Source: Olsenella profusa F0195 (GTDB taxonomy: Bacteria > Actinomycetota > Coriobacteriia > Coriobacteriales > Atopobiaceae). From it: a stretch of 34,137 bases of DNA. This document shows positions 1,837 through 21,590 of the stretch, piece after piece (positions within the stretch are counted from its first letter, which is position 1; each line of letters opens with the position of its first letter). The stretch spans positions 1 through 34,137 of the forward strand of contig NZ_AWEZ01000059.1 in NCBI RefSeq assembly GCF_000468755.1, in the 5' to 3' direction. The translations under genes were made by a program, and so were the position numbers. The notes under the pieces were generated by a model that saw only the letters and a program-made list of their open reading frames with translations, ran no database searches and had not been told where the DNA came from.

Positions 1837-4233
1837 TCACCCGAGCACGCGGGCACGGGCGCCCGCGACGTCCAGCACGCCCTCGGCAAAGCCCTTGCGC
1901 ACCAGTTCGGGGGGCAGGAACTCGTCGTACTTGTCAAAGATGGGCAGCTCCTTGGGATAGAGCAGGCTCAGGGGGTCGATCTCTGCGGCAAGGGCCTCGC
2001 TCAGGGCATCCAGGAACTCCTCGGCCGAGACGGCCATGCGGAACTGGATGTAGTAGGGTCGGCTCACGTCCACGCCCTTGATGCCCAGGCTCGTCGGCAT
2101 GCGCAGCTTGATGACGCGCTCGAGCGCCAGGAAGGCGTACGTGCCCAGCCAGGGGAAGAGCGCCCAGGTGTCCCCTCCCAGGTTGACCAGGGACATCTGC
2201 GACTGCCCGCCGCCGGACCTCCTGGCCCCCTCGGTGATGCCCGCAGCAGCCGCCTCGTGGCGCGCGGCGGCCAGTCGTGCCCGTGCGTTGTCACGCAGGT
2301 AGGGATAGTCTCGCTGCTCGGCCAGCACCTGGCGCATGCGCTCCAGGATGCGCGTGTTGATGTCGCCGGGGCACTCGCCAAAGTAGGCGGGCACCCTCCC
2401 CTTGACCTCCGTCACGTAGACGAGGCGCTTGCGGTGGTCCACCTCCTCCACGATCCACACGCTCCCCGCGATGGCGAGCTTCTCCCCCGGTGGAGGCGGC
2501 TGCACCACGGTGCCCAGCTCCTGACTGTCCGCCCGCACGGTGTACTCCTCGCTCTCCACGAACACGCCGTAGAAGCGGAAGTCGTTGGTCACACGCTCCC
2601 CGACCAGCCCCACGATGAGTCCACCCGTCTCCGTCCGCTCGATCTGCTCGGTATCGATGAGGTGGCGCAGGAGCGTGCGGTAGTCGTCCTGCGAGACGTT
2701 CGCGAACGGCGAGAGCGAGAGCACGCGCGCCGCCAGGGCGGCCGGCGTGAGCTCCCCCGACGAGGCGAGGGTGGCCATGGTCTGGTGGTAGAGCAGACTG
2801 TAGTGCCTCCTGTCTTCGCGCGGCGGTTCCACCCAGCGTTCCTCGAGATAGAGCTGGACCAGCGCGATGCCCTGCAGGAGCTTCCAGAGGATGGTCTCGG
2901 GCAGGAGCGCACGGGGCTCGGGCGGGTCCTCGCGCATGACGAACCATATCTCGGGCGGCTGGCCGCGCCTGCCCGTGCGGCCCATGCGCTGCAGGAACGC
3001 CGAGACCGTGAAGGGGGCGTCCATCTGGAAGGCGCGCTCGAGCCGACCTATGTCGATGCCCAGCTCCAACGTGGCCGTGGTGCAGGTGGTGAGCTCGCTC
3101 TCGGGGTCGCGCATGAGCTCCTCCGCCGTCTCGCGCAGACTTGAGGAGAGGTTGCCGTGATGGATGAGGAAGCGGTTGGGCTCGCCCCTCCTCTCGCAGT
3201 ATGCGCGCAGCGTGGACGTGACCTCCTCGCACTCCTCGCGCGAGTTGGAGAACACCAGGCACGTGTGGCCCCGCGTGTGCTCGAACACGTAGGCGAGGCC
3301 CGGGTCGGCCTCCTCGGGCGCCGTGTCCGAGGCGTCTGCCTCCAGGGCGGCATCGTCCGGTGTGGCGGTGGCGAGTGCAGCCGTGCCCTCCCCCGCCCGT
3401 TCGGGAAGTCCGGAGGGTTCCTCCTCCACATGTTCCACGAGGGCGTCCACATGCAGCGAACCCCCCGTGGTTCCTCCCGCACGCGCAAGCTCCTCGCCTG
3501 TGGCCCGCTTGGCAGCCTGCGGGCCATGGCTGTAGAAGTGCTCCATGGAGATGCGCCAGGTCTGACCCTGCTCCCGCACGCGCGGGACGACGGTGTCGCG
3601 CCCCGAGCCGGCCCCCAGGATGCGTGCCGTCGCCTCGGGGTCGCCGATGGTGGCCGAGAGGCCGATGCGCCGCGGGCGCACCTGCGCCAGACGTGAGAGC
3701 CGCTCGATGAGGCAGAGCGTCTGCGCGCCGCGATCGCCTCGCAGGAGCGAGTGGACCTCGTCTATGACCACGAAGCGGAGGTCTCCGAACAGCTTGGGGA
3801 TGGCGGCGTGACGATGCAGCAGCATGGCCTCGAGTGACTCGGGCGTGATCTGCAGGATGCCCGAGGGGTGCTTCATCAGGCGCGCCTTGTGCGAGGCGGA
3901 GACGTCCCCATGCCAGTGCCACACGGGGATGCCGCCCTCCTCGCAGAGATCCGTGAGGCGGTAGAACTGGTCGTTGATGAGCGCCTTGAGGGGACCCACA
4001 TAGACGCAGCCCACCGTTGCGGGCGGATCCTCCCACAGCTGCGTGAGGATGGGAAAGAAGGCCGCCTCCGTCTTGCCCGAGGCCGTGGACGAGGTGAGCA
4101 GCACGTTGTCCTCGGTATTGAGGATGGCATCGGCCGCCGCGACCTGGATGGCGCGCAGGGACTCCCAGTCGTGCTCGTAGATGAAGTCCTGCACGAAGGG
4201 GGCCAGCCGCTCGAACACGCCCGTATCTGCCAT
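1837..4233 (-). CDS. Lhr-like DEAD/DEAH superfamily 2 helicase, candidate SngC of a Shango-like system
   Basis: This 798-residue SF2 helicase has Walker A SSTASGKTE (residues 48-56), the box DEVH (158-161), motif III SAT (193-195), LVFSNSREECEEV, HHGNLSSSLRE, TTATLELGIDIG and QRMGRTGRRG. The order and wording resemble Lhr-type helicases. An Ala/Glu-rich insertion of about 60 residues precedes motif IV. A long C-terminal region follows, ending with LVNLGGDTWALFPWLGTYAF. The ATG at 4233 has GGGGAGG in front; upstream in-frame starts run through repeat DNA and are rejected. Helicases of this kind are the third partner of TerB-N/C and DUF2791 proteins (Shango SngC). Those two partners are encoded at 15714-18895 on the same strand. 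A free-standing DNA-repair role is the alternative, favoured by the LexA-like box on its promoter. Confidence 0.8.
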   Translation of the reverse strand: MADTGVFERLAPFVQDFIYEHDWESLRAIQVAAADAILNTEDNVLLTSSTASGKTEAAFFPILTQLWEDPPATVGCVYVGPLKALINDQFYRLTDLCEEGGIPVWHWHGDVSASHKARLMKHPSGILQITPESLEAMLLHRHAAIPKLFGDLRFVVIDEVHSLLRGDRGAQTLCLIERLSRLAQVRPRRIGLSATIGDPEATARILGAGSGRDTVVPRVREQGQTWRISMEHFYSHGPQAAKRATGEELARAGGTTGGSLHVDALVEHVEEEPSGLPERAGEGTAALATATPDDAALEADASDTAPEEADPGLAYVFEHTRGHTCLVFSNSREECEEVTSTLRAYCERRGEPNRFLIHHGNLSSSLRETAEELMRDPESELTTCTTATLELGIDIGRLERAFQMDAPFTVSAFLQRMGRTGRRGQPPEIWFVMREDPPEPRALLPETILWKLLQGIALVQLYLEERWVEPPREDRRHYSLLYHQTMATLASSGELTPAALAARVLSLSPFANVSQDDYRTLLRHLIDTEQIERTETGGLIVGLVGERVTNDFRFYGVFVESEEYTVRADSQELGTVVQPPPPGEKLAIAGSVWIVEEVDHRKRLVYVTEVKGRVPAYFGECPGDINTRILERMRQVLAEQRDYPYLRDNARARLAAARHEAAAAGITEGARRSGGGQSQMSLVNLGGDTWALFPWLGTYAFLALERVIKLRMPTSLGIKGVDVSRPYYIQFRMAVSAEEFLDALSEALAAEIDPLSLLYPKELPIFDKYDEFLPPELVRKGFAEGVLDVAGARARVLG

Positions 4234-4260
4234 GCTCGCCTCCCCTGTCACACCCAAGAT

Positions 4261-4282
4261 AGGAACACCTGTTCCTAGTATA
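4261..4282 (-). promoter_or_regulatory. Helicase promoter with LexA-like SOS box
   Basis: On the minus strand a TATACT -10 box (4277-4282) is followed at once by the palindrome AGGAACAGGTGTTCCT (4261-4276). Its core GGAACAGGTGTTCC agrees with the Gram-positive LexA consensus CGAACRNRYGTTYC at all but the first base. The expected transcription start falls inside the palindrome, an ideal place for repression. The ATG at 4233 lies about 35 nt downstream. LexA binding is inferred. Confidence 0.6.
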
Positions 4283-4298: not shown

Positions 4299-4460
4299 AT
4301 GTGGGTGCCATCCGCTGCCGTGTGGGTGCCCTTTGCTGCGTGTGGGTGTCTTTCTCCCTCAACAGCCTCCGCTGACCTGCACCTCTGCCGGCGGCGCCAT
4401 GGCGATTGACACCCACACGGACAGAAGCGCACCCACACGGACAGAAAGGCACCAACAGCG
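4299..4460. repeat. Family A palindromic repeat element, copy A2
   Basis: Units start at 4299 (ATGTGGGTGCC), 4320 and 4340 (GTGTGGGTGTC). The last pairs with GACACCCACAC at 4408-4418, and two more inverted units end near 4438 and 4455. The loop carries CTGACCTGC at 4372-4380. Spacing is 20-21 bp. The element fills the gap between the divergent helicase and transporter genes, and its first unit overlaps the expected -35 position of the helicase promoter. Confidence 0.85.
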
Positions 4461-7932: not shown

Positions 7933-8053
7933 TTTGAGTCATTCGCAAATTTTTGCCGGTCAGTGGAGCCTTGCGGCAGTTATTTCAGAGACAACAACCC
8001 GTATACCTGCTCGTATCCGAAAACGGAGTCGTATGCATTTGCATACGACTCCG
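7933..8053. repeat. Family B palindromic repeat element, copy B1
   Basis: The left unit GAGTCATTCGCAAATT begins at 7936, a central GTATACCTGC lies at 8001-8010, and the right end (8024-8053) is a perfect palindrome with 14-bp arms CGGAGTCGTATGCA and TGCATACGACTCCG around TT. Read on the minus strand, the palindrome follows the aldolase stop by about 40 bp and is trailed by TTTTC, so it might also serve as a terminator. The element lies between two convergent genes. Confidence 0.8.
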
Positions 8054-13250: not shown

Positions 13251-13424
13251 TTTGAGTCGTATGCAATTTGCCAGGACATCAGGTTGAGTCGTTCGCAAAT
13301 TCATGGGGTACTGCAGGTATTGCGACAGAGTCAACGACTTATGTACCTGCATCTTCACAAATTCGGGGTCGTGTGCGTTTGCATACGACCCCGAATGTCC
13401 CCTACGAAAGATGCGTACGACTCC
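13251..13424. repeat. Family B palindromic repeat element, copy B2
   Basis: Left units TTTGAGTCGTATGCAATT (13251) and GTTGAGTCGTTCGCAAATT (13283) are followed by TGCAGGTA (13312-13319) facing TACCTGCA (13344-13351), then a 16-bp near-perfect inverted repeat (13361-13376 against 13381-13396, one mismatch). A further right-hand unit, ATGCGTACGACTCC, ends at 13424. It lies between the convergent glycyl radical enzyme and nitroreductase genes. Confidence 0.8.
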
Positions 13425-13447
13425 TCAGGGACGGCACCCACAAGGCC

Positions 13448-15377: not shown

Positions 15378-15713
15378 GCAGAGCACCTCCCCCTCGCCGA
15401 CTGCCCCTATCCTAGGGGACGCCCCACGACCAGACCGCACGACGGCTATGCTTTTACCCAATACCTTGCAGCCTCCACACGCGAACGCCCAGGCATGGGG
15501 AGGTGAGTCGTATGCAACCTCCCGGCCGGTCCCTCGGGGTCGTTCGCATTTCCCTGTCCGCTCGCACCAGATGTCACAAACACAGCAATCGGTGTACCTG
15601 CCCCGATACAGTACGGCACCCGCATGCAATTGCATACGACTCCCACAGGGACGGGCGAGAAGTGCGAACGACTCGACGAGCAACCCGACGAACGGCTCGA
15701 GGAAGGCACCGGG
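15378..15713. other. Intergenic gap filled largely by a family B element
   Basis: This 336-bp gap lies between the DUF2791 ATPase stop and the glutamate-cysteine ligase start, both on the minus strand. It contains the B3 repeat (15502-15675) and, at 15378-15500, the probable ligase promoter region. I see no gene in it. The open frame continuing upstream of the ligase start is judged accidental. Confidence 0.6.
15502..15675. repeat. Family B palindromic repeat element, copy B3
   Basis: Left units GTGAGTCGTATGCAACC (15503) and GGGGTCGTTCGCATTT (15536) face right units TTGCATACGACTCCC (from 15630) and GTGCGAACGACTCG (to 15675). The centre carries GTGTACCTGCC at 15592-15602. The two left units differ from each other in the same way as the two right units (GTATGC against GTTCGC), and their order is mirrored. 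It follows the stop of the DUF2791 ATPase gene. Confidence 0.8.
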
Positions 15714-17069
15714 TCACTCGATCGTGAACTCGGCAAAGGCGGTATCGTCACCGCCATCGGCCCCGGCATCGGCTGCCGCATGCCGGAAGTCATCGGACCC
15801 CAAAAGCCCCTCCACCGTCGCGTGCGGATCCTGCACCATGATGTCCAGCATCTCGATGAAGTCGCGGATCACCTCGCGCGGGGTCACGTGGGTGTCCGCC
15901 CCGACGCGCGCGAGCTCTATCTCCAGGAAGCGTGCCAGGTCGTCCTCCGTGAGGCGCCGCCCATAGCCAAAGAGCCCCGCATGGATGTCCGCGAGCTTCT
16001 CCACGAGCACGAGCAGCTCCTCTGGGGTGAGCGGCGTGAGGCGTATGACCGGCGCCAGCAGGTCCACGTGCCCCTCGCGCCCAAGACGCCCCTGCGTGAG
16101 GCGGCTGCGCAGCGCCTCGTAGGAGTACAGGCCGCGCCGGCGGTCCTCCACGCACTGGGGCGTGCCACTCATGATGATGCCCAGGTACGATGCCTTGCCC
16201 TGCAGGGTGTCGTTGTACATGGTCAGGATCTTCTCGTAGTTGTACTGACGGCTGATGGCGTTGGGGATCTTGTAGAGGTTCACGAGCTCGTCCACGAGCA
16301 CCACGAGCCCCTCGTAGCCGGCCCCGCGCAGGAAGCGCGCGAACAGCTTGATGTAGTCATACCAGTCGTCATCCGAGATGATCACGTTCACGCCCAGCTC
16401 AAAGCGGGCCTCCGCCTTGGTGCGGTACTCGCCGCGGAACCACTTGACCACGCTGGCCTTGACGTCATCATCCCCCGCGAGGTGCGCGCGAAAGTACGCC
16501 GAGAGGATCCTGGCGAAGTCGAACCCATGCACCAGCTCCTGCAGGTCGCTGATGACGGCAAAGATGCGCCGCTCCACCTCGTCAGCGAAGGCGGAATCGT
16601 CCGGCGCCACACCCAAGGCCACCACCTGGCTCTGCACACCTGAGATCCAGCGATCGAGGATGAGCGTGAGTGCCCCGCCCTCGGGCCGCGTCTTGGTGGA
16701 GAGGTTGCCGATGAGCTCGCGGTACGTCGCCAGCCCCTGTCCCTTCGAACCCGAAAGACGCCGCTCGGGCGAGAGGTCCGCATCCGCCACCACAAAGCCC
16801 TTGCCCATGGCATGGGTGCGAATGGTCTGCAAAAGGAAGCTCTTGCCGCTGCCATAACGGCCCACCACGAAGCGGAAGGAGGCACCGCCATCGGACACGA
16901 TGTCGAGGTCGCGCAGGAGGGCGGCGATCTCCGCCTCACGTCCCACGGTGATGTAGGGCAGCCCGATGCGCGGCACCACGCCACCCTTGAGCGAGTTGAT
17001 GATGACCGTCGCGATGCGCTTGGGCACGCGCGGACGCCGCACCTGCGCCGTCTCGTCCTGCATGGTCAC
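15714..17069 (-). CDS. DUF2791/BrxD-like ATPase, candidate SngB of a Shango-like system
   Basis: This 451-residue P-loop protein has Walker A GRYGSGKSFLL at residues 70-80 and Walker B LVVLVDE at about 255-261. PRIGLPYITVGREAEIAALL precedes the ATPase core, and AGYEGLVVLVDELVNLYKI and IIMSGTPQCVEDRRRGLYSYEALRSRL follow. These fit the 'BREX system ATP-binding' (DUF2791) family. The start is the GTG at 17069, whose GTGA overlaps the stop of the TerB-domain gene, with GGGAGG 7 nt before it. Overlap with a TerB-N/C protein is the gene pair seen in Shango (SngA-SngB). The predicted role is an ATP-driven step in phage sensing or DNA handling, based on family knowledge only. Confidence 0.82.
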   Translation of the reverse strand: MTMQDETAQVRRPRVPKRIATVIINSLKGGVVPRIGLPYITVGREAEIAALLRDLDIVSDGGASFRFVVGRYGSGKSFLLQTIRTHAMGKGFVVADADLSPERRLSGSKGQGLATYRELIGNLSTKTRPEGGALTLILDRWISGVQSQVVALGVAPDDSAFADEVERRIFAVISDLQELVHGFDFARILSAYFRAHLAGDDDVKASVVKWFRGEYRTKAEARFELGVNVIISDDDWYDYIKLFARFLRGAGYEGLVVLVDELVNLYKIPNAISRQYNYEKILTMYNDTLQGKASYLGIIMSGTPQCVEDRRRGLYSYEALRSRLTQGRLGREGHVDLLAPVIRLTPLTPEELLVLVEKLADIHAGLFGYGRRLTEDDLARFLEIELARVGADTHVTPREVIRDFIEMLDIMVQDPHATVEGLLGSDDFRHAAADAGADGGDDTAFAEFTIE

Positions 17070-18895
17070 GAAAGGGCCTCCCTCACGTCCTCGGCATAGT
17101 CCTCCACCAGGTACGGCTCGTCCCCATCGAACGCGATGACGGTATCGCCCACCAGGTCGAAGAGCAGCTCGTTTATGGTATCCACCGCAAGCGACAGCAG
17201 GGAGCCGCCCTCCGCTGCGGCGGCCCTCGCTGCGGCGACATCCCCTGCAAGCAGTGCCTGAAGGATGGCGCGTTGCGCGGAGGTGAGCGACGAGGCGCCC
17301 GACGGTGCGCCCACGGGATCAGGCGTGGGTCGTGCGGAGGATGCAACCGCTGCCGCTGGCATCCCCTTTGCAGCCTGCCGCACCGGCTCCCACTCGCGTT
17401 CCTCGTCCACCAGCAGCGCCTCGCGCGTACGACTCGCCGCCATGCGGATGTTCCCCAGCTGGGAGCGGTCGATGTGCACCTCTGCGGCACGCGCCGCAGC
17501 CCTCTGCCCCAGCCAGGCGGAGACCTCCTCCCCCACGAGCGCCGTGAGGTACTTGGGTGCGTGGCGTTCCTTGAGCGGGGGCACGTCCCCCACCCGCTCG
17601 CGCAGGATGCGGTCGACCGTATGCAGGACGAGGCCGAGCTCGCTGCTGGCCGAGCGCACCTCGCACGGCTCGGTCAGCCACCACGCGCCCGCACGGCACG
17701 ACACGACCTCCCCACTGGGCAGCGCGATGGTCACATCCTCGTGAGGCGGCTCCCCTGCGCACACGGCCGTGGAGTACATCATGTGATGATAGGTGCATGC
17801 CGCGCCAAAGAGCCCGTCCAGGAAGCTCGCCTTGCGGCGGCGCTCGCAGTGCTCCACCAGGCGCGCGAACACCTGCGGCAGGATGCCCCCGACATCGTCC
17901 GCATGCGTCCGCATCACCTTGGACGCGAGGATGTGGTAGGTGGACGCCCCGTTCAGCGCCCGCACGAGGACATCGCGTCCCGGCAGGCCCGGGACATCCG
18001 CATCCCAGCGCAGGTGCCGCCGTGTCCCGGATGCATGCCCTCCATCCCCGGCAGCGTGCGCCAGCAGCGCATCCTGGGCCGTCCGCAACTCCCTGACGGC
18101 CCGCACCACGGCATCCCCCCTACCCTGCACATAGGGCGCGAGTGCCGGTTGCGAGAGGTCGAGATCGTGGACGAGCGCATAGTCGCGTATCCACAGGGGC
18201 AGGTAGCGATCGAGGGCACGGCCTCGCCCATCGGCACCATAACCCTCATGGAGGCCGATCAGCTCGCGCAGCCCACCCTGTCCGGGTTCGACGCCCACGT
18301 CGGCAAGCACCTCATAGGCATGCACGAACACGAAGGCGGGCGGACAGCCGAGCACCTCGCCCCTGCGAAAGTGCGTACGCCAGGTGAAGTAGCCCCGCAG
18401 CACACGGTCGGGCATGTCCTCGTACGTGGGGTAGTAGCTGGAGAAGTTGCCCAAAAACGGCAGGTCGTCCGTGTAGTCTGCCATAAGGTGCGCCTGCTCC
18501 ACAAAGAGCTTGCCACCAGCCGGGCCATGGCCTTCCGTCCGCCGCTGCCGTGCCAGGGCACGCATGGCCTCGATCGGGGCGGTGCGCTCCACCTCAGGCT
18601 CATGTGGCGACAGCGGCAGCGGCCGGGGGCGACCCTGCGTCGGGGAATGTGCGCGAGCCGAGGGCCGAGCTGGATGGGGCGATCGCACCCGCTGGGCGTC
18701 CTTCCCCCAGCGTCGGTCGTTCAGCAGGTCGCGCCCCGTGCGCAGGAGAGGCTCATCGGCATACAGCCCGCCCTGCCGTACGCGCTCGCGCTCGTGCGGC
18801 GCAAGATCCGCAAGGATCTGCTGGAGTATGTCATCGGCCCGTGTCACACGCCCCTCCGTACCACATGCGTACACCTGTTCGTAAGTATACGCCAT
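17066..18895 (-). CDS. TerB-N/TerB-C domain protein, candidate SngA of a Shango-like system
   Basis: This 609-residue protein carries a TerB-N domain (about 105-310) marked by FVEQAHLMADYTDDLPF, YYPTYEDMPDRVLRGYFTWR and FRRGEVLGCPPAFVFVHAYE. A central TerB-like region contains CERRRKASFLDGLFGAAC, and a TerB-C region (about 470-600) contains EVHIDRSQLGNIRMAASRTREAL. A Pro/Arg-rich linker occupies residues 70-105 and an Ala/Pro-rich one about 525-550. The ATG at 18895 follows GAAGG; a GTG three codons earlier is possible. It lies 24 bp after the P-type ATPase gene and overlaps the DUF2791 ATPase by 4 bp. In Shango, SngA is the TerB protein and is thought to act with an ATPase and a helicase against phage. 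Confidence 0.8.
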   Translation of the reverse strand: MAYTYEQVYACGTEGRVTRADDILQQILADLAPHERERVRQGGLYADEPLLRTGRDLLNDRRWGKDAQRVRSPHPARPSARAHSPTQGRPRPLPLSPHEPEVERTAPIEAMRALARQRRTEGHGPAGGKLFVEQAHLMADYTDDLPFLGNFSSYYPTYEDMPDRVLRGYFTWRTHFRRGEVLGCPPAFVFVHAYEVLADVGVEPGQGGLRELIGLHEGYGADGRGRALDRYLPLWIRDYALVHDLDLSQPALAPYVQGRGDAVVRAVRELRTAQDALLAHAAGDGGHASGTRRHLRWDADVPGLPGRDVLVRALNGASTYHILASKVMRTHADDVGGILPQVFARLVEHCERRRKASFLDGLFGAACTYHHMMYSTAVCAGEPPHEDVTIALPSGEVVSCRAGAWWLTEPCEVRSASSELGLVLHTVDRILRERVGDVPPLKERHAPKYLTALVGEEVSAWLGQRAAARAAEVHIDRSQLGNIRMAASRTREALLVDEEREWEPVRQAAKGMPAAAVASSARPTPDPVGAPSGASSLTSAQRAILQALLAGDVAAARAAAAEGGSLLSLAVDTINELLFDLVGDTVIAFDGDEPYLVEDYAEDVREALS

Positions 18896-18919
18896 GTCGC
18901 GCACCTTCGTCCGACGACG

Positions 18920-21409: not shown

Positions 21410-21590
21410 GTGTGGGTGCCGATTGCTTCGTGTGGGTGTCTTTCTCCCGAGAGGGGCTGACAGAGCCGCAGGTCGCGAGAAGCCAGAACAGGAGAAAAGC
21501 ACCCACATGCAGGAATTGGCACCCACATGCGACAGACAGCACCCACAGGGGTAGGGATCGGCACCCACATGCGGCAGGCAGCACCCACCC
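21410..21590. repeat. Family A palindromic repeat element, copy A3
   Basis: One left unit (21410) and a hairpin arm GTGTGGGTGTCTTTCTCCCG (21430-21449) face the right arm GGAGAAAAGCACCCACAT (21491-21508), followed by four inverted units ending at 21528, 21548, 21570 and 21590. The loop holds GCAGGTCGC (21468-21476), the complement of GCGACCTGC, so this copy is inverted relative to A1. It has the most units of any copy and starts 18 bp from the isomerase stop, in the gap upstream of the P-type ATPase. Confidence 0.87.

Follow-up and report, generated by a model that had tools for sequence, protein, structure and literature searches.

Closest Described Systems

The Shango anti-phage system of Pseudomonas aeruginosa PA14 consists of a TerB-domain protein (SngA), an ATPase (SngB) and a DEAD/DEAH helicase (SngC), and in the published system the three genes form a single operon within a defence hotspot (PMC10250203). 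PMC12278908 groups SngC with BrxHI, DruE and DpdJ as a clade of superfamily 2 (SF2) helicases that is potentially distinct. We analysed a 34,137-nucleotide stretch of Olsenella profusa F0195 (Atopobiaceae; contig NZ_AWEZ01000059.1, positions 1 to 34,137; hereafter the window), which carries all three Shango proteins. It differs from the published arrangement in that sngC lies 11.5 kb away from the other two genes, with an apparent promoter of its own and in an ordinary chromosomal neighbourhood, and in that each unit is preceded by a LexA-type box. The window thus holds a split-locus Shango that is probably under SOS control. With a probability of roughly 0.75, we read it as a complete Shango whose sngC was moved by about 11.5 kb through rearrangement, and whose parts probably still work as one machine under shared promoters that LexA would repress.

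Two further families resemble parts of this system. SngB belongs to the BrxC/BrxD family shared with bacteriophage exclusion (BREX) systems and SngC resembles BrxH; unlike a BREX component, however, SngB reaches only 180.5 bits with the BrxD equivalog NF033438, for which the NCBI cut-off is 350, and no other BREX genes were identified among the window proteins scanned. The Lhr-core and MrfA helicases are similar to SngC in predicted fold and sequence, whereas SngC travels with SngAB. In a literature search made mostly without subscription papers, we found neither a paper linking Shango to LexA nor a use of SOS control on an anti-phage helicase/ATPase system. The one paper found to contain both terms, PMC13216270, names Shango as a strain-specific system, and LexA occurs there in a reference on SaPI.

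Identity of the Three Genes

The three genes are located in the window as follows.

17066–18847, minus strand: sngA, TerB_N/TerB_C protein of 593 aa from a revised GTG start; top PADLOC match SngA (1.4e-64)
15714–17069, minus strand: sngB, BrxC/BrxD-type ATPase of 451 aa; top PADLOC match SngB (1.9e-188)
1837–4233, minus strand: sngC, SF2 DExH helicase of 798 aa; top PADLOC match SngC (4.8e-267)

An earlier sequence-only reading had described a TerB-N/TerB-C protein overlapping a DUF2791/BrxD-like ATPase by GTGA, with a lone helicase as a fitting SngC partner, and profile searches bore this out by matching each protein to its expected model. The open reading frame (ORF) at 17066–18904 on the minus strand matched Pfam TerB_N (9.7e-21) and TerB_C (1.2e-18), the sngB product matched BrxC_BrxD (DUF2791, 4.5e-166), and the sngC product matched DEAD and Helicase_C; the GTGA overlap lies at 17066–17069. 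In PADLOC, SngB obtained 625 bits as SngB versus 178 as BrxD (E 1.2e-52), and the helicase obtained 886 bits as SngC versus 408 for the next-best family, BrxH (2e-122), which places it with SngC and not in an unrelated clade. All three ORFs are intact, with the motifs GKT (53), DEVH (158) and SAT (193) found in SngC and the Walker A motif GSGKS in SngB. For SngA and SngB, the whole genome (2.72 Mb in 73 contigs) gave a single match each; SngC had one strong match (6.0e-267), the second match listed for this genome reaching only 1.2e-15.

The start of sngA is most likely the GTG at 18847, rather than 18895 or 18904. This GTG is preceded by GGAGGGG, and the protein then begins with MTRADD, while the three genus relatives begin with MSRADD, MPRADE and MSRAEK (leaders translated by eye). 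The distance to the upstream P-type ATPase gene consequently becomes 72 bp, containing a promoter-like element, which replaces the 24-bp gap obtained when sngA was taken to begin at 18895.

The predicted fold of SngC (predicted local distance difference test score, pLDDT, 72.7) was nearest to Lhr (5v9x; Foldseek E 1e-22, TM 0.61), followed by MrfA (6znp, 1.9e-17), with approximately 17–20% identity over the structural alignment with Lhr/MrfA; the SngC sequence also matches both. The predicted fold of SngA gave no significant match in the PDB, its C-terminal stretch being weakly winged-helix-like (LysR DNA-binding domain, E 0.61). A sequence search found no solved relative of SngA, and a phage search with SngA gave no match.

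Displacement and Co-inheritance of sngC

An interval of 11,480 bp lies between the sngAB pair and sngC, which is downstream on the same (minus) strand, and the intervening genes lie on both strands. They comprise OpuBC/OpuA-type transporter genes, a zinc-type alcohol dehydrogenase, a pyruvate formate-lyase (PFL)-like glycyl-radical enzyme, a nitroreductase, a glutamate-cysteine ligase, and transaldolase-like and DeoR-like genes (the last two named by eye from translations). This map agrees with the lone helicase on the same strand, beyond transporter and other genes, that had been noticed from the sequence. In the genus relatives G001, G002 and G003, the order is sngA-sngB-sngC with sngB and sngC close together. 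Among 80 named SngC loci, SngB was visible in 73, of which 64 had a sngB–sngC distance of at most 230 bp, seven had a larger gap and two had the order sngC-sngA-sngB. As the three genes normally lie together in relatives, sngC of the window has been displaced by ordinary chromosomal genes, and the locus, which does not consist of three adjacent genes in one operon, is filed as a split-locus variant and not as canonical Shango. The genes of the gap are sited elsewhere in the genus relatives; the PFL-like gene, for example, is approximately 31 kb from Shango in G001 and 300 kb in G002. No remnant of SngC was found behind SngB, the best chance match having an E-value of 0.41. The displaced state costs nine changes on an SngC tree of 39 sequences (L094 omitted), so the window is one of several independent displacements.

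The sequence-only reading had left two options, the splitting of an ancestral unit or a machine that works from dispersed genes. The adjacency in G001–G003 and most relatives speaks for the former, and the latter holds in part because the scattered genes look co-regulated, as described below.

SngB and SngC remain co-inherited. When 60 genomes including that of the window were searched, 28 had a strong SngB (E below 1e-100), 28 had a strong SngC by the same threshold and 27 had both. The only genome with SngB alone (G046) has a contig edge just behind SngB, and hence no genome carrying the pair was found to be truly devoid of such a helicase; in the only genome that has SngC alone (G015), the assembly is fragmented and contains pieces of both SngA and SngC. 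The distances of SngB and SngC from the window to 27 relatives were correlated with r = 0.93, and those over all pairs of the 28 loci with r = 0.83 (Mantel test, 0 of 999). Separately, relatives of SngB were found in 690 PLSDB plasmid records, of which 449 were named Klebsiella and 542 were typed conjugative.

LexA/SOS-type Boxes before Both Units

Each of the two units is preceded by a palindromic box next to a -10-like hexamer.

4263–4274, minus strand: LexA/SOS-type box GAACAGGTGTTC of sngC, exact GAACANNTGTTC, 30–41 bp before the start
4277–4282, minus strand: -10-like TATACT of sngC, 2 nt before the box; inferred promoter
18869–18880, minus strand: variant LexA/SOS-type box GAACAGGTGTAC of sngA, 22–33 bp before the revised start
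18884–18889, minus strand: -10-like TATACT of sngA, 3 nt before the box; inferred promoter

The sngC leader thus reads TATACT-AG-GAACAGGTGTTC, in which the box is the core of an 18-bp palindrome (4260–4277), and the sngA leader reads TATACT-TAC-GAACAGGTGTAC, whose box has one mismatch to GAACANNTGTTC. The genome encodes LexA (TIGR00498 2.5e-68 at L212; PF01726 1.2e-22), and its lexA gene is preceded by GAACACGTGTAC, which is the same variant type as the sngA box. An operator like that of lexA lies in the putative promoter of each unit, exact at sngC and with one mismatch at sngA. The Gram-positive SOS (LexA) regulon likewise has a GAACA-N2-TGTTC palindrome beside a -10-like hexamer and such a box upstream of lexA, and the window site fits the Gram-positive SOS box GAACN4GTTC. 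LexA was present in 14 of the 15 genomes searched, and GAACANNTGTTY in either orientation was located just upstream of it in 12 of those 14.

The exact pattern GAACANNTGTTC occurs at six sites in the 2.72-Mb genome, versus one for the reversed control pattern, and only some of the six are in promoter position as judged by eye. The relaxed pattern GWACANNTGTTY gave 17 distinct sites, six of which precede lexA (two sites), a TIGR03916 gene, a UvrA-like gene, sngA and sngC. The TIGR03916 gene encodes a putative DNA-repair radical-SAM protein (3.3e-169; L206:1501-2956). The UvrA-like gene (7.7e-115; L205:1-1512) encodes a cut protein scoring below the UvrA cut-off, and another gene diverges from the same point at which its box is located. 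These two boxes are candidates for a small SOS regulon. An exact box was also seen directly before a small ORF without an NCBIfam match (L179:1032-1512); the gene next to this ORF is exodeoxyribonuclease III-like, as judged by eye.

The box was then counted in 38 Shango loci of Coriobacteriia from 37 genomes (L076 and L077 both belong to G010), taking as leader the bases from -160 to +45 relative to the 5' end of each profile match, 20,569 of 676,930 bases in all. L098 (G048) was excluded for having no Shango, and L099, L100, L102, L105, L108, L111, L112, L113 and L134 as copies of genomes already included. With at most one mismatch, GAACA-N2-TGTTC was found 32 times within leaders and nine times outside (exact, 8 and 4), while the 19 other permutations of the half-sites gave 0–2 within and 4–24 outside. 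The box of the window had been noticed first, and leaving the window out lowers the leader count from 32 to 30. A matrix built from lexA promoters alone gave 29 sites within leaders and 11 outside at 12 bits. At least one box was present in 26 of the 38 loci; the -10 count was 23 of 32, a figure that has no background control. In some loci the box stands before sngB instead of sngA, where the gap between these genes is approximately 90 bp or more. In G034, an acyltransferase gene lies between sngA and sngB (L089:11355-14067).

Outside Coriobacteriia, 44 loci, mostly clostridial, had enough DNA before sngA (842,742 bases in total). Here the one-mismatch box occurred 17 times in leaders (10,164 bases) and 19 times in the rest, versus 0–2 and 16–75 for the permuted controls; none of the 17 was exact, and several came from close relatives (Ruminococcus flavefaciens). 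A box before SngB was considered in this set and rejected, as many hits of the position weight matrix were the coding motif NEKLFD of SngA. These hits inflate the matrix counts, and hence the SngA-only permutation test given above was used instead. Of two Shango loci on Paenibacillus plasmids, one carries GAACGTGCGTTC and then TATAAT, 160 bp upstream of sngA, and the second has no box. No LexA box of the E. coli type was present within 500 bp at the Shango loci examined from E. coli (two) and Pantoea (one), indicating that SOS control is not a property of all Shango systems; it is predicted for the present group.

Proposed Mechanism and Alternatives

The near-identical promoters on both pieces, TATACT followed by GAACA-N2-TGTWC, suggest that these probably still serve one machine. 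In such a scheme, LexA would bind and repress both the sngAB and the sngC unit. Phage attack or other damage would generate RecA-coated single-stranded DNA, upon which LexA would be cleaved and all three proteins would rise together. SngC, as a helicase of the Lhr/BrxHI type, may translocate on single-stranded or branched DNA and would act on DNA intermediates together with the SngB ATPase and the TerB-domain SngA, presumably against phage in this organism as well.

Several observations weigh against this scheme. With the relaxed pattern GWACANNTGTTY, 23 strand hits were obtained in the genome and 11 with its reversed control, which means that an individual site is not proof. No box precedes lexA in G002 and G034. 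Twelve of the 38 Coriobacteriia loci have no box within one mismatch, including those of the genus relatives G001 and G002, in which the box before sngA carries two mismatches. The association between displacement and an own box counts for the scheme, but has limits. SngC had its own box in 6 of 11 displaced loci, or seven if a weak one is counted, and in none of the 22 adjacent loci (Fisher p 4e-4), where displaced means a sngB–sngC gap of at least 230 bp, a cut chosen after seeing the data. A 500-bp cut gave 5/10 versus 1/23 (one-sided p about 0.005, by hand). Phylogenetically independent pairs numbered 4.2 for, 0 against and 4.8 with no difference (median p 0.125); these are too few, and the link is without significance once relatedness is taken out. 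Of the 11 displaced SngC, those of L075, L096, L120 and L163 have no box in the scanned zone and that of L085 has a weak box only. L096 has a box approximately 400 bp upstream of SngC, and in L120 a permease gene running in the same direction occupies the gap, which may leave SngC within the operon. The SngC of L077, on a different contig from SngAB, has no box. At L125, with no SngB in the preceding 10 kb, SngC has a box. In G010, a strong lexA-type site lies 2.1 kb behind sngB (L076:10714), sngC being on another contig.

The alternative that survives best accepts the operator as real and common to both units and assigns it to another Shango-specific or phage-type regulator outside the SOS response. 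The loci lacking a good box would agree with this, as would the many Shango boxes of a GTAC variant. However, the box, including that variant, also precedes lexA itself as well as the TIGR03916 and UvrA-like genes of the same genome, the matrix made from lexA promoters only still picks the Shango leaders, and the site has the form of the Gram-positive SOS box. We consider such a repressor unlikely, though worth taking seriously.

It would also be conceivable that SngC is an independent repair helicase of the Lhr/MrfA kind, with SngAB acting alone or decaying, so that the genes no longer form one system. The isolated position of SngC with its own promoter and its nearest folds, Lhr and MrfA, are in line with this idea, but it is made quite improbable by the wide margin of SngC over BrxH in bit score, the co-inheritance with SngB in 27 of 28 genomes each way, the intact ORFs with their motifs in SngB and SngC, and the promoter type common to both units. 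An assembly artefact at the repeat islands flanking the sngC block (244–402 and 4300–4437) is very improbable as the origin of the 11.5-kb distance, despite some 29 similar islands in a genome assembled in 73 contigs, because the split is independent of any join at the islands, other DNA directly follows SngB with no SngC remnant, the promoter of sngC lies within the 66 bp before the island, and displacements recur in other genomes. A split but complete Shango, probably under LexA, is the reading we retain.

Neighbouring Genes and Repeats

Additional members were sought among the neighbours. The P-type ATPase upstream of sngA had been suggested as an extra, fourth member, a suggestion we abandoned, as its gene had no tblastn match (E 1e-3) in 37 other Shango loci and its homologue in G003 sits on a different contig from Shango. 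The glutamate-cysteine ligase and phd/parE genes likewise had no match in those 37 loci; the latter are ParE-like toxin and Phd/YefM-like antitoxin genes at 798–1458, downstream of sngC. The genes lying between SngB and SngC in other genomes were considered as extra defence genes and set aside. A scan of 20 of the proteins encoded in 12 chosen gaps yielded some without a Pfam match and others of ordinary kinds, namely transporters, a hydrogenase-type enzyme, a permease, a methyltransferase, an Rrf2 regulator and wall/lectin-type proteins.

The window has three palindromic intergenic islands built of TGTGGGTG units in the arrangement +++---.

244–402: TGTGGGTG island
4300–4437: TGTGGGTG island
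21411–21569: TGTGGGTG island

The first two flank the block of phd/parE and sngC. About 29 such islands were grouped by hand in the genome, the reversed control pattern giving none, and none were seen in 37 other Shango loci scanned. Their role as borders of a mobile sngC cassette was dropped because the stretches bounded by paired islands contain ordinary genes and one IS21-like pair (by eye), and because no island was found in those 37 loci. A second family of intergenic palindromes, around GAGTCGTATGCAA, is found at 8025–8047, about 13255–13440 and about 15497–15643, likewise on both sides of gap genes.

Implications

A LexA operator ahead of Shango, as predicted in many Gram-positive genomes and before each piece of the broken operon, would link this defence to DNA that is damaged or being replicated, and an Lhr-like helicase suggests likewise. 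For Coriobacteriia and part of Clostridia, we lean slightly towards the view that Shango belongs to the SOS response, held off by LexA and turned on by DNA damage in infection, and that scattered genes keep or regain LexA operators and thereby form one regulon and not one operon. If this is true, the gene-adjacency rules in defence finders would miss such dispersed systems. The present locus suggests that the genes of a defence system can lie 11.5 kb apart and still function as one set, which programs demanding adjacency may overlook.

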